A DNA stretch of 49,083 bases, taken from the NCBI GenBank assembly GCA_031292455.1, contig JARLHC010000056.1:1-49083 (forward strand), written 5' to 3'. Below, in pieces: positions 9,980 through 15,389 of this stretch. The notes beneath the pieces are model-generated. The model was given only the letters and a program-made list of their open reading frames with translations. It made no database searches and was not told the origin of the DNA. Position numbers and translations under genes: made by a program. The stretch is from Ignavibacteriaceae bacterium. GTDB lineage: Bacteria > Bacteroidota > Ignavibacteria > Ignavibacteriales > Ignavibacteriaceae. The stretch's first letter is position 1. Every line of letters begins with the position of its first letter.

Positions 9980-11248
9980 ATGAAATTATTTGCATGTATT
10001 ATTCTTTTCACTTCAATCGTTTACTGCCAGGTAAATTTTGATGATTATTTTACAAACAAAACATTAAGATTTGATTATTTCCATACCGGCAATAAATATA
10101 ACGACTTTTATTCTTCCGATGAATTGAAGGAAGAGCCATATTGGGGTGGCTCCCAAAAGAATTTGATTGATAAATTTAATATTGGTGCATATAAATTTGT
10201 TGTTCTGGATGATTCAACAAAAAAGGAAATTTACACACGCACTTATTCAACTCTCTTTCATGAATGGCAGACTACAGAGGAAGCGGCAGCCACAACAAGA
10301 ACTTTTAGTGAAACGGTAGTATTCCCTTTCCCGAAGCATAAGGTAAGTATTGAATTTTTCGGTAGGGACAGGAAAAATAACTATGTCCTTAAATTCGAAT
10401 ATAAAATTGATCCGAACAATTATTCTATTAAGAAAGAAAGAAATCTTGAATATCCTGCTTTTAAAATATATTACACGGGTGATCCAGCAATAAAAGTAGA
10501 CCTGGTCATTCTTCCGGAAGGTTATACTAAAGATGAATTGGAAACATTTAGGCATGATTGTAAGAAATTTGCGGATTATCTTTTTAATTCCGATCCCTAT
10601 AAGCAGAATAAAGATAAATTCAATATATGGGGTATTGCAGCTCCCTCCTTGGAATCAGGCACAGATATTCCGGCAAAAAATATATGGAAGAAAACTATAC
10701 TGAATACAAAGTTCTATACATTTGATGAAGAAAGATATTGTATGACCACAGATAATAAATCAGTTCGTGATCTTGCTGCTAATGCACCGTATGATCAGAT
10801 TTATATACTTGTAAATTCTGATAAGTATGGGGGTGGTTCTCTTTACAACGATTATTCCGTTTGCGTACATAAGAATAAAGAAGAAGAATACATTTTTACA
10901 CATGAATTTGGTCATGGATTTGCTTCACTAGCAGATGAATATTACACCTCAGATGTAGCCTATAAGGATTTTTATGATTTAACGGTTGAGCCGACTGATC
11001 CTAATATTACTACTCTGGTAAACTTTGATTCTAAATGGAAAAACCTTGTTGATGACAATACACCCATTCCAACTCCAAATACCCCGGAATATAAAGATAA
11101 AGTGGGCGCTTTTGAGGGTGGAGGATATGTTGCCAAAGGGATATACAGGCCAAAGCAGGATTGTACAATGAAATCTATAATCATAAATAATTTCTGCCCG
11201 GTTTGTAAGAATGCAATAATTCAAATGATTGATTTTTATACTCAGTAG
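9980..11248 (+). CDS. Secreted M64-family (IgA-type) metallopeptidase
   Basis: The protein has 422 residues with an N-terminal signal peptide (about 1-16, ending VYC-Q; the tyrosine before the cysteine makes a lipobox unlikely). A beta-rich N-terminal domain like the M64 N-domain covers about 20-150. The catalytic domain contains the substrate-cleft region VDLVILPEGYTKDEL and the zinc motif HEFGH at 308-312, followed by LADE. Cysteines near the end (DCTMKS, FCPVC) match the conserved late cysteines of this family. M64 peptidases include IgA-cleaving enzymes of Clostridium and Bacteroides relatives, but the substrate here cannot be inferred. No T9SS sorting domain is present at the C-terminus, so the protein is probably periplasmic or released by another route. 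Confidence 0.9.
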   Translation: MKLFACIILFTSIVYCQVNFDDYFTNKTLRFDYFHTGNKYNDFYSSDELKEEPYWGGSQKNLIDKFNIGAYKFVVLDDSTKKEIYTRTYSTLFHEWQTTEEAAATTRTFSETVVFPFPKHKVSIEFFGRDRKNNYVLKFEYKIDPNNYSIKKERNLEYPAFKIYYTGDPAIKVDLVILPEGYTKDELETFRHDCKKFADYLFNSDPYKQNKDKFNIWGIAAPSLESGTDIPAKNIWKKTILNTKFYTFDEERYCMTTDNKSVRDLAANAPYDQIYILVNSDKYGGGSLYNDYSVCVHKNKEEEYIFTHEFGHGFASLADEYYTSDVAYKDFYDLTVEPTDPNITTLVNFDSKWKNLVDDNTPIPTPNTPEYKDKVGAFEGGGYVAKGIYRPKQDCTMKSIIINNFCPVCKNAIIQMIDFYTQ

Positions 11249-11566: not shown

Positions 11567-12136
11567 TCATTTGATTATATTAGAAATTTCCTTGAATTCT
11601 TCAGTACCACTATTAACGAGAAGTTCAAATAATATTGCTTCAGATGTAGTAATCTCTGCTCCGTGAGTTCCCATCCGGTCAAGTGCTACCTTATAATCCA
11701 AATCCTTCCTTGATGAAATTGCATCAGCAGCAACATTTACCTGAAAGTTATTTGCTACAAGGTCGAGTACCGTCTGCTGTACACAAACATGTGCTTCTAT
11801 ACCCGCTATAACAACTTGTGATACTTTATTATCTTCAAGTCTGTTAAAGAAATTACCGGCGCCGAAACAGCTAAAGTTCATTTTCTGTATAGGGCTTAAC
11901 CCATGAAGCTCGGATAATAGTGCTTCGGAGGTAGTACCCAGTCCCTTTGGATATTGCTCAGTATAAAATATAGGGATATTCAGAACTTTAAACCCCTTAA
12001 TCAATTTCATAGTATTATTAATAACCTGATCAGGCTTATTCATTACAGATAATATCTTATCTTGAATATCTATTAATAAAAGAGCTGATTTATCTCTTAG
12101 TAATATTTTGCTGTTCCTTTGAAATGAAGTGGTCAT
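11567..12136 (-). CDS. Isochorismatase-family cysteine hydrolase
   Basis: The product has 189 residues and the compact alpha/beta fold signature of the isochorismatase superfamily. The catalytic triad is visible as Asp23 (LLIDIQ), Lys85 (PIQKMNFSCF) and Cys118 (AGIEAHVCVQQT), the last preceded by the typical cis-peptide region. Members hydrolyse isochorismate, nicotinamide, N-carbamoyl amines or related amides. The phenylalanine- and cysteine-rich segment after Lys85 resembles the YcaC-like and mitochondrial ISOC subgroups more than nicotinamidase, which would show extra metal-binding histidines. The substrate is not predictable. It is 13 bases downstream of the C39-like gene on the same strand, so the two are probably co-transcribed. 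Confidence 0.88.
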   Translation of the reverse strand: MTTSFQRNSKILLRDKSALLLIDIQDKILSVMNKPDQVINNTMKLIKGFKVLNIPIFYTEQYPKGLGTTSEALLSELHGLSPIQKMNFSCFGAGNFFNRLEDNKVSQVVIAGIEAHVCVQQTVLDLVANNFQVNVAADAISSRKDLDYKVALDRMGTHGAEITTSEAILFELLVNSGTEEFKEISNIIK

Positions 12137-12149
12137 ATAAACTCCTGTC

Positions 12150-12989
12150 TTAATAATCTAATTGATCCATACCGTATTTGCCGCAAGCGTACATCATTAA
12201 TATTGATGTAATATCAACTAAAGCTTTTTTTTGTTCATCTGCCGGTATAATCAGATCATAAACTTCGGCCACAAAAAGCATATTCTTCAATATTTTATGT
12301 AACTCTTTGTAGGATGGTGTGCCATGCCAGTTGGCAATTTGTTTTACTAACAGGTTTTCATGCCGTCTGAGGAATTCAGTAAATGAAATTGTTCTTTTTG
12401 CCAGAGGGGAGCGAGGTTTACATATGTTTATCAGATCATTAAAATAAGTATCCCATCTTTCAGCAAGATGCTGATTACGGTCCCTCATTACATAGCGTGC
12501 CTTTTCAAGAGAAAAATTAGCTTTAGTAACAGGTTTGAATTTTGAGGTTAACGCATATCCATCATAGCTTCTGAAATTACTTTCTTCGTCGATATATTTC
12601 CACCTTTTAAGAAGCTGGTGAGATGAATAAATTACGATCACCTTATCCAAACCACTGTCAACGACAATAAACTTTCCCTGCTGCTCATTAATAACTGTGA
12701 ACCAATGTTCCCAATTATCAACACTTAGAATACAAGGTAGACCTAATTTCAGATGATCTGTAAGAGCTTTAATAGCTTCATCGGGAGTTTCTCGCCTGAA
12801 ATATTTCATCTTGCACTCAAAGCTTTTAGCCGCTTTTGCAAGTCCTATTTCATCAGTGCCGTACCACCAGGTACTTCCAGCTCTTTTACCTATCTCCCTT
12901 TCATTTTCAAATCTACCAAGCATAACTAATCCATACTTAAGGGCAAAAGGACCGCATTGATATTTATATGGCTGGGGGTAAAAACTCAT
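12150..12989 (-). CDS. Cytosolic protein with an N-terminal C39-like cysteine peptidase domain
   Basis: The product has 279 residues. The first ~130 look like a C39/papain-like fold: Gln6 precedes Cys12 by six residues (the Q-x5-C spacing of C39 peptidases, with YQCGP), and His95 (NWEHWFTVI) and Asp111 (FIVVDSG) complete a plausible triad. The remaining ~150 residues are helical in character and unrecognised. There is no signal peptide, transmembrane segment or ABC transporter domain, unlike bacteriocin-processing C39 enzymes, so the protein should be cytosolic. It might be a peptidase, a transglutaminase-like or an acyl-transfer enzyme. It is divergent from the ATP-grasp and lysA pair across 91 bp and is followed by an isochorismatase-family gene. 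The fold call rests on motif spacing only. Confidence 0.7.
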   Translation of the reverse strand: MSFYPQPYKYQCGPFALKYGLVMLGRFENEREIGKRAGSTWWYGTDEIGLAKAAKSFECKMKYFRRETPDEAIKALTDHLKLGLPCILSVDNWEHWFTVINEQQGKFIVVDSGLDKVIVIYSSHQLLKRWKYIDEESNFRSYDGYALTSKFKPVTKANFSLEKARYVMRDRNQHLAERWDTYFNDLINICKPRSPLAKRTISFTEFLRRHENLLVKQIANWHGTPSYKELHKILKNMLFVAEVYDLIIPADEQKKALVDITSILMMYACGKYGMDQLDY

Positions 12990-13042
12990 AATGGTAAATT
13001 ATTCATGACAATTTAATCAAAGTTAAAGACTAAATTACTAAT

Positions 13043-13060
13043 ATATTTTGTATAAAATAT
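13043..13060. promoter_or_regulatory. Small inverted repeat in the divergent C39-like / ATP-grasp promoter region
   Basis: ATATTTT (13043-13049) and AAAATAT (13054-13060) form a 7-bp inverted repeat around GTAT in the 91-bp space shared by two divergent genes. It could be an operator or simply AT-rich promoter sequence. Exact promoter boxes are not clear. Confidence 0.3.
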
Positions 13061-13080
13061 TATTTTAATTATTTTGATTT

Positions 13081-14130
13081 ATGGCAAAAAAACAAAAAAT
13101 AGCAGTTGTCTTTAATGAAGCAAGTGCGGAATTTTACATAAAACCTGAAGTAACTGAAAAGAAAGATTTTAACTTTATCCCATTTTTTGAGGTAGATGAC
13201 CTTAACCCGATTGAGGAATATGAATTACTGGCAAAACGGTTATCTAAAGCGGGTTATGACGCATACACACTTAATATTCGTGATGATATTACCCTTTTGA
13301 TAAAGGACGCAAAAAAGAATAAACCTGACTGCATCTTCAACTTTATCGAACTTTATAAGGAAAACGCAAGACTTGAGATGAATGCAGTGGGGGTAATTGA
13401 CCTATTAAGAATCCCGTATACCGGTGCCTCCCCACTTACCCTTGCTAATTGTCAGAATAAAGTACTGGCAAAAAGAATTCTTAAGGTCGAGGGAATCAGA
13501 ACTTCCAAATTTATTATTATTAAGGAAGCAGCAAATAAGTATGTGCATCATCTCAAATTTCCCGTAATTGTTAAACCTGCCTATGAAGATGCAAGTGTAG
13601 GTATTGATAACGATTCAGTTGTACATAACGAAAAAGATCTTAAAAGACGCATTGAGTATATACTATTTGACTTCAACCAACCAGCGCTTGCAGAAGAGTT
13701 TATTGAAGGTCGTGAATTGAATGTTGCTGTTATGGGGGATAAAGAACCAGTTGCTCTTCCCATTAGTGAAATTGATTTCTCTCAAATGCCTGCCCATCTG
13801 CATAATATTGTAAGTTACCAGGCCAAATGGGATCCGAATCATGAAGCCTATCATAAAACTATTCCTATATGCCCGGCATTGCTTCCTAAGGATATTGAAA
13901 GAGCAGCTAAGAGTATTGCTCTAAAAGCTTTTAATATTATGGGCTGCCGGGACTATGCCCGCATTGACATACGCTTGTCAAACGACAACCAGCTTTATGT
14001 ACTTGAGGTAAATCCTAATCCCGATCTTACTGAAGGTGCTGGCTTTTTACGTTCTACCGAAGCAGCAGGATATTCTTATGTGCAAACTCTAGAAAAGATA
14101 ATCAATTATGCTATACTTAGAGGCAGCTAG
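13081..14130 (+). CDS. ATP-grasp ligase related to D-alanine-D-alanine ligase
   Basis: The product has 349 residues. ATP-grasp enzymes join a carboxylate to an amine through an acyl-phosphate. A Ddl-like layout is visible: a pre-ATP-grasp domain ending IPYTGASPLTLANCQNK, the ATP-lid region FPVIVKPAYEDASVGI, EEFIEGRELNVAVMGD, and the metal-binding LEVNPNPDLTEGAG. Canonical Ddl has a GSSxGV loop and a NEINTMPG end, so this is a divergent relative, and I would not name it ddl. It has no signal peptide. It sits 2 bases upstream of lysA, so the two are almost certainly one operon, and it is divergent from the C39-like gene. Possible jobs are peptide or amino acid ligation, perhaps to a meso-DAP or lysine-derived product; that is inference. 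Confidence 0.85.
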   Translation: MAKKQKIAVVFNEASAEFYIKPEVTEKKDFNFIPFFEVDDLNPIEEYELLAKRLSKAGYDAYTLNIRDDITLLIKDAKKNKPDCIFNFIELYKENARLEMNAVGVIDLLRIPYTGASPLTLANCQNKVLAKRILKVEGIRTSKFIIIKEAANKYVHHLKFPVIVKPAYEDASVGIDNDSVVHNEKDLKRRIEYILFDFNQPALAEEFIEGRELNVAVMGDKEPVALPISEIDFSQMPAHLHNIVSYQAKWDPNHEAYHKTIPICPALLPKDIERAAKSIALKAFNIMGCRDYARIDIRLSNDNQLYVLEVNPNPDLTEGAGFLRSTEAAGYSYVQTLEKIINYAILRGS

Positions 14131-14132
14131 AA

Positions 14133-15389
14133 TTGGAATTAATTGAATCTCCTGCATTTTCATATAAAAACAATCATCTTTGTTGTGGTAACATTCCTTT
14201 ACGGGATATAGTTAAATTAACCGACACACCTGTATATATATATAATAAGCAATTTTTTCTGGATAGATATAATGAATTTAAGAATGCCTTTAAGGATTTA
14301 GACAACTCGATATTTTTTTCTATCAAATCAAATTTTAATATAAGTGTAATCAAAACCTTCCTTGATCTCGGATGCGGTGCCGATGTTAACTCTCAGGGAG
14401 AGATGTATCGGGCATTGAAAGCAGGAGCTAACCCTGATAAACTCATCCTCTCAGGTGTCGGTAAAACAAAAGATGAAATAAAATATGGCCTGGAACACGA
14501 TATTCTCATGCTTAAAGCAGAATCAGAAGAAGAGATTCTCCTTATTAATGACATTGCCGGTAATATGAATAAGACTGCACGTGTGGGGATAAGAGTTAAT
14601 CCGAATGTTGATGCCCAAACTCATCCTTATATTTCTACGGGTTTGATGGAAAATAAGTTCGGATTAAATACAAATGAAGCTATTGATCTTTTTAGAATGG
14701 GTGGCAGGTTAAAAAATATAGAATTTACTGCAATAGATATGCATATCGGCTCTCAGATTATTAGCATAGAACCATTTGCTGAAGCAATAGACCGCCTTTC
14801 CGAGGTATATTTTAATTTGCAAAAAAATGGTATCACTCTAAAACATTTTGATATTGGTGGCGGTATTGGTGTCTCATATAAAGGAGAAAAAATATTTTCT
14901 ATCAATGAATTTGCATCGGCACTAATTCCTAAATTAAAAAAACTAAACTGCAAAATATTATTTGAACCGGGAAGATTTCTCACAGCCAACGGTGGTATTC
15001 TTGTATCCAAAGTACTCTTTACCAAAATGAACTATGATAAAAATTTTATTATAACGGACGCTGCAATGAATGATCTATTACGCCCGAGCATGTATAATGC
15101 GTATCATCATATTCAACCAGTCGATCTGAGCCCTGAAAGGGAGGATATCAATGCGGATGTTGTCGGACCAGTTTGTGAAAGCGGTGATTTCTTTGCAAAG
15201 GATCGTATCATTCCTAAAATGAAAAGGGAAGAATATTTAGCTATTCTTTCCTGCGGCTCCTACGGAATGGTAATGTCTTCTAATTATAACGGCAGAAGAA
15301 GACCCCCAGAGGTACTTGTGGATAATAATAGTTTCCGCACCATCCGAAGCAGAGAAACATATGAGCATCTTATCTGGGATGAAAAATAA
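14133..15389 (+). CDS. lysA: Diaminopimelate decarboxylase
   Basis: LysA removes CO2 from meso-diaminopimelate to give L-lysine. It is a fold-III PLP enzyme working in the cytoplasm. The 418 residues match the family. The PLP lysine is Lys65 in SIKSN. Other signatures are MHIGSQI, GGGIGVSY, the phosphate-binding EPGRFLTANGG, CESGDFFAKD with the catalytic cysteine, and GSYGMVMSSNYNGR near the end. These CESGD and SNYN motifs fit DAP decarboxylase rather than arginine or carboxynorspermidine decarboxylases. The start is a TTG, with GAGG about 10 bases upstream and only 2 bases after the ATP-grasp stop; no in-frame ATG lies before the conserved region. Placement with a ligase rather than with dapF or dapB is unusual and leaves room for a specialised role. 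Confidence 0.9.
   Translation: MELIESPAFSYKNNHLCCGNIPLRDIVKLTDTPVYIYNKQFFLDRYNEFKNAFKDLDNSIFFSIKSNFNISVIKTFLDLGCGADVNSQGEMYRALKAGANPDKLILSGVGKTKDEIKYGLEHDILMLKAESEEEILLINDIAGNMNKTARVGIRVNPNVDAQTHPYISTGLMENKFGLNTNEAIDLFRMGGRLKNIEFTAIDMHIGSQIISIEPFAEAIDRLSEVYFNLQKNGITLKHFDIGGGIGVSYKGEKIFSINEFASALIPKLKKLNCKILFEPGRFLTANGGILVSKVLFTKMNYDKNFIITDAAMNDLLRPSMYNAYHHIQPVDLSPEREDINADVVGPVCESGDFFAKDRIIPKMKREEYLAILSCGSYGMVMSSNYNGRRRPPEVLVDNNSFRTIRSRETYEHLIWDEK

Follow-up and report, generated by a model that had tools for sequence, protein, structure and literature searches.

Positions 11,567 to 15,389 of contig JARLHC010000056.1 (assembly GCA_031292455.1, an Ignavibacteriaceae bacterium), a 49,083-nucleotide stretch called the window here, carry four genes: a two-domain C39-like thiol enzyme (C39), a divergent ATP-grasp ligase of the Ddl superfamily (GRASP1), an isochorismatase-fold hydrolase (ISO), and lysA (Table 1). 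A check of the open reading frames (ORFs) placed all four where a sequence-only reading of this DNA had put them, and by the ORF coordinates 2 bases separate the GRASP1 stop from the lysA start. The module formed by C39, GRASP1, and usually ISO is ordinary in its parts, and unusual in their combination and conservation.

Table 1. Genes of the C39/GRASP1 locus and the space between its divergent starts.
Feature	Position	Strand	Profile score or remark
Isochorismatase-fold cysteine hydrolase (ISO)	11567..12136	-	PF00857, 113 bits
Two-domain C39-like papain-fold thiol enzyme, 279 aa (C39)	12150..12989	-	PF03412, 22.8 bits (gathering 22)
Intergenic space between the C39 and GRASP1 starts, 91 bases	12990..13080		Putative shared promoter region
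Ddl-superfamily ATP-grasp ligase (GRASP1)	13081..14130	+	PF07478, 126.1 bits
lysA, diaminopimelate (DAP) decarboxylase, TTG start	14133..15389	+	TIGR01048, 463.7 bits; neighbor outside the conserved module

The conserved unit is C39 with GRASP1, usually joined by ISO, and lysA is incidental to it. A scan of a species-level genome collection for C39, made with exact peptide patterns that miss distant homologues, returned 68 loci, whose source labels include Ignavibacteria, Ignavibacteriales, Ignavibacteriaceae, Melioribacteraceae, Melioribacter roseus, Stygiobacter, unplaced Bacteroidetes, and one Chlorobiaceae. In 63 of these, C39 has GRASP1 upstream in divergent orientation; three of the five loci without it (L003, L066, and L067) start inside C39. 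The C39-like and ATP-grasp genes that the sequence-only reading had singled out are thus found together across most of the relatives scanned (63/65 uncut loci). At one locus (L058), about 1 kb and two small ORFs stand between them. ISO is found downstream of C39, usually on the same strand, in 59 of the 68 loci. A wider set of 103 partly redundant loci counts some genomes twice (e.g., L063/L133 and L038/L167), and L066, L067, L143, L145, and L162 are absent from it, the ORF step having given no clustered C39 there; in this set GRASP1 is the divergent neighbor in 72 loci and comes third in another, and ISO is next to C39 in 59, with one further locus where it comes second. The gap between the C39 and GRASP1 starts, a putative shared promoter region in the window, measures 80–105 bases in 39 of 73 pairs of relatives, and the median spacing between C39 and ISO is 17 bases (60 loci). 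Five genomes (G067, G103, G112, G014, and G016) have a ligase of the GRASP1 clade on a contig other than that of C39, so that these genomes retain both partners although they are not adjacent.

The position of lysA is another matter. Of the 63 GRASP1 loci, 57 have at least 400 bases beyond GRASP1, and lysA follows in just one of these (L002, from the window's own genus); further lysA-bearing loci are the window itself and G001, again of the same genus. The window's genome, 96.7% complete, contains a single lysA match, which settles the copy count that the sequence-only reading had looked to for signs of a specialized role. With a score above the TIGR01048 cut-off of 297.9 bits, the product is, as judged from sequence, a true, housekeeping DAP decarboxylase. 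Because lysA follows GRASP1 in 1/57 loci and is the sole match in its genome, it is ruled out as a member of the module; of the four-gene cluster first proposed, the C39 and ATP-grasp genes stand, usually with ISO, and lysA does not.

The module is restricted in its distribution. A C39 profile match was found in 34 of 296 genomes sampled from the phylum, all of them in the window's class and 33 of them strong, and a sample of that class gave matches at E 0.001 in 90 of 245 genomes, 74 of these being strong and near full-length. A few members of this bacterial group are in culture.

The window's C39 protein only just passes the PF03412 cut-off, and 44 of the 56 members match this family at E 0.1. 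The Q6-C12-H95-D111 spacing of C39 type, which had been recognized from the sequence, is confirmed by the alignments: all four residues are invariant in 56 aligned sequences (the window protein plus sequences from 55 of the 68 loci; the first alignments also took in 51 of 63 ligase and 28 of 59 isochorismatase loci). They are likewise present in 28/28 full-length rows of a second alignment, which shares some genes with the first, and the Gln is absent in three of its nine short or remote rows. A catalytic domain (residues ~8–153) is followed by a helical one (~155–279), in which Y182, D185, R208, R209, W221, and H222 are kept in 28/28 full-length rows. As the sequence-only reading had it, the 279-residue protein has no transporter domain (by Pfam), and a signal peptide would find no room in front of it, since residues 6 and 12 are already the catalytic Gln and Cys. 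In the window's ISO, D23, K85, and C118 are invariant in 29 aligned sequences; isochorismatase-like cysteine hydrolases have an Asp-Lys-Cys triad, and ISO has both this triad and a match to the isochorismatase-like profile.

An AlphaFold2 model of C39 (mean predicted local distance difference test score 86.7) has the papain-like fold that had been expected. By VIA-align the best match to residues 8–153 is the isopeptidase PeiR (Z 15.1, 3.1 Å, 130 residues), with the ComA peptidase domain (Z 14.8, 2.8 Å, 125 residues), phytochelatin synthase (Z 11.1, 3.7 Å, 138 residues), and staphopain (Z 11.0) also aligning. A search of Protein Data Bank (PDB) sequences with the A1 profile matched PeiR weakly (E 0.0052); the single C39 protein gave 0 matches to PDB sequences, a tblastn search of plasmids with C39 gave none at E 0.01, and a viral fold search gave weak matches. 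The C39 domains of ATP-binding cassette transporters such as ComA and PCAT1 share the catalytic fold and the Q-C-H-D residues with the window protein, but those exporters cleave double-glycine leaders, whereas the window protein lacks the transporter fusion and carries its second domain instead. Shorter relatives that have the C39 domain only occur in families f8 and f15 (L158–L161, L163, and L164); their ORFs of 152–185 residues keep the Q-C-H-D set and lack the second domain. In family f12, C39 is immediately upstream of, and co-directional with, hslV-hslU at 7/7 loci fetched (L150 and L152–L157) out of 13 f12 genomes with C39, hslV and hslU being identified by model in L150 and by sequence cluster in the others.

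The f12 arrangement leaves room for a role in peptide turnover or tagging. C39 may serve the general turnover of peptides or proteins as an intracellular peptidase or isopeptidase, with a separate role for the adjoining ligase; its place before hslV and hslU in the seven f12 loci and its closest fold, that of the endoisopeptidase PeiR, speak for this. We nevertheless regard it as unlikely: the hslVU link is seen in one family only, while the divergent C39/GRASP1 pair spans several families and the ligase persists, unlinked, where adjacency has been lost. In a reversible tagging system, with a logic like that of RimK- or Pup-type systems, GRASP1 would tag a protein with an amino acid or a peptide, which C39 would take off again. 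A ligase next to an isopeptidase-like fold, and C39 beside hslVU in f12, would suit such a system, but no target protein or tag was seen and the characterized Ddl-type enzymes act, to our knowledge, on small molecules, making it improbable. The chances seem slimmer still for a reversible conjugation in which GRASP1 would attach an amino acid (for example, a β-amino acid from the KamA operon described below) to a peptide or protein and the two-domain C39 enzyme would be the dedicated isopeptidase that detaches it, coupled to the HslVU protease in f12.

GRASP1 shares with Ddl its fold and ATP-grasp core (Foldseek E 7.2e-23 to Thermus Ddl, template modeling score 0.72/0.77) but scores below both Ddl cut-offs, with 139.4 bits against 245.65 for TIGR01205 and 164.2 against 243 for NF002378. 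Where two aligned Ddl proteins have NTLPG, the window's GRASP1 has NPNPDL, an altered acceptor motif that suggests a substrate other than D-Ala. A separate Ddl above cut-off is present in 19/21 genomes. These scores and the separate Ddl make it unlikely that GRASP1 is the cell's Ddl, less firmly so for the window's own assembly (G000). A tree of 40 rows groups the ligases associated with C39 in one clade (Shimodaira-Hasegawa approximate likelihood ratio test, SH-aLRT, 100) apart from Ddl (two rows) and from the ligase GRASPa; this clade also takes in the unlinked ligases of the five genomes named above and the ligase of G021.

The nearest relatives of GRASP1 point to a second locus. The window's genome has two more GRASP1 relatives, in tandem on contig C10, in an operon-like run of ligase, ligase, GNAT, and KamA (L176:9468-13217), and the same order is found in 7/7 KamA loci examined. 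The KamA-type radical SAM protein has lysine 2,3-aminomutase as its best model, at 475.5 bits and thus below the cut-off of 525.4. A larger clade (SH-aLRT 99) joins GRASP1 to GRASPb and to the second ligase of each KamA locus and excludes GRASPa and Ddl; its internal branching is unresolved, and at four of seven such loci the second ligase is a better match to GRASP1 than to GRASPb. By these sequence relationships, GRASP1 shares an ancestor with the ligases of the ligase-ligase-GNAT-KamA operon. A related ATP-grasp gene also stands beside a KamA family protein on a plasmid of Thioflavicoccus mobilis (L196:2560-8041), where the neighbors are annotated as SbnA, an ornithine cyclodeaminase-type gene, and a diaminobutyrate aminotransferase.

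Genomes with and without C39 differ in these genes when descent is ignored. A third match to the ligase (A2) at E 1e-60, not assigned to GRASP1 genome by genome, is found in 57/74 genomes with C39 and 1/171 without it, and KamA at E 1e-100 in 69/74 and 103/171, respectively. A ClpC tree covering 81 of the 245 class genomes, with G037 and G249 absent and the row of G136 mistranslated (branch length 10), shows joint change of C39 and KamA in ~3.7 of 9 independent pairs and opposite change in none (p 0.125). There may be a working link between the C39/GRASP1 and KamA-operon loci. Of the lysine- or DAP-derived substrate in the sequence-only reading, a tie to lysine-derived compounds is left, and that only by way of the ligase relatives that adjoin a KamA-type enzyme at the other locus.

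A ligase/hydrolase module, as suggested earlier from the sequence, is the best reading of the grouping: we put a probability of roughly 45% on a lineage-restricted module of ligase and thiol hydrolases that builds and reworks a small amide compound. Ddl-type ATP-grasp enzymes form amides via an acyl phosphate, and GRASP1 would likewise use ATP to turn a carboxylate into an acyl phosphate and couple it to an amine. Because the ligases share an ancestor, its substrate may be related to the product of the KamA operon, which would be a β-amino-acid compound should lysine be the substrate of KamA. Papain-type thiol enzymes are able to hydrolyze acyl groups or to pass them on; the cytosolic C39-like enzyme would form a thioester at Cys12 and then either hydrolyze an amide or transfer the acyl group to another amine, and ISO would be a second cysteine amidase.

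Several observations weigh against this module. ISO is missing in 9/68 loci, seven of which have 5 kb of room for it. A third ligase match at E 1e-60 is missing from 17/74 genomes with C39, which also agrees with a turnover role for C39 alone, and G027, which has both C39 and GRASP1, lacks KamA and the ligase pair. The reverse case is G021, in which GRASP1 and ISO adjoin divergently (L187:4508-6326) and the genome has no C39 match. Linked change of C39 and KamA on the ClpC tree is not significant and is suggestive only. Finally, neither G000 nor G005 has a Ddl above cut-off; for G000 this is possibly an assembly gap.

The proposed chemistry has a parallel in glutathionylspermidine synthetase/amidase, in which a papain-fold amidase of CHAP type is fused to an ATP-grasp-type synthetase. 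There, too, a cytosolic papain-fold amidase and an ATP-grasp-type ligase make and break one amide, but the window has separate, divergent genes, a C39-like domain with a helical partner, and a Ddl-type ligase. The likeness is one of logic alone and implies no glutathione or spermidine substrate for the window genes.

The sequence-only reading had also drawn a comparison with butirosin biosynthesis, in which C39 would be a BtrH-type acyltransferase, the ligase a BtrJ-type loader, and LysA a BtrK-type decarboxylase. The same broad enzyme classes do stand side by side in the window. Weak matches to BtrH_N (PF14399) at E 0.1 are found in 35/56 C39 members (best E 0.00039), and hhalign against six BtrH_N proteins gives a probability of 61%, over columns 50-128 only. 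CtaG of the closthioamide pathway ranks sixth by Foldseek, with a VIA-align Z of 10.2 over residues 10-152; the Foldseek alignments to CtaG and AziU3 are long and have low template modeling scores, and we gave them no weight. Against the comparison, the window protein scores 14 bits, below the BtrH_N cut-off of 29.7, the second domains are not part of the hhalign alignment, and LysA is a housekeeping enzyme encoded by a single-copy gene that adjoins in 1/57 loci. A carrier link is also lacking: the two PP-binding (carrier) matches of the window's genome, the only one searched for carriers, are on contigs C169 and C58 and not on C95 or C10, and by eye neither C39 nor GRASP1 lies beside them. 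The BtrH score, the single lysA, and its rare adjacency rule out the BtrH/BtrK analogy as drawn, and a butirosin-like pathway of any such form is very improbable.

Related pairings are on record. Passages of PMC2922099 describe papain-fold transacylases of BtrH type encoded in gene clusters with peptide ligases, and BtrH is also treated in part of PMC10318531; the kind is therefore already known, though the window's member is not among the literature matches listed, nor is any title on the C39/GRASP1 module. A passage of PMC6772006 has CtaD predicted to load β-alanine and terms CtaG a peptidyl transferase. Closthioamide biosynthesis, to go by that passage, resembles the window in having an ATP-grasp protein together with CtaG, which matches the window model in its catalytic domain; its chemistry is carrier-bound, whereas the PP-binding matches here are off the C39/GRASP1 contig.

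If the module does build and rework a small amide, it would be a conserved amide make-and-break system in little-studied bacteria, and the pairing of a two-domain cytosolic C39 enzyme with a KamA-operon-related ligase poses a concrete biochemical question. Elsewhere in the window, positions 9980-11248 encode an M64 family peptidase (PF09471, 247.7 bits), a relative of which is found near the module in L002, L003, L070, and L071 only.

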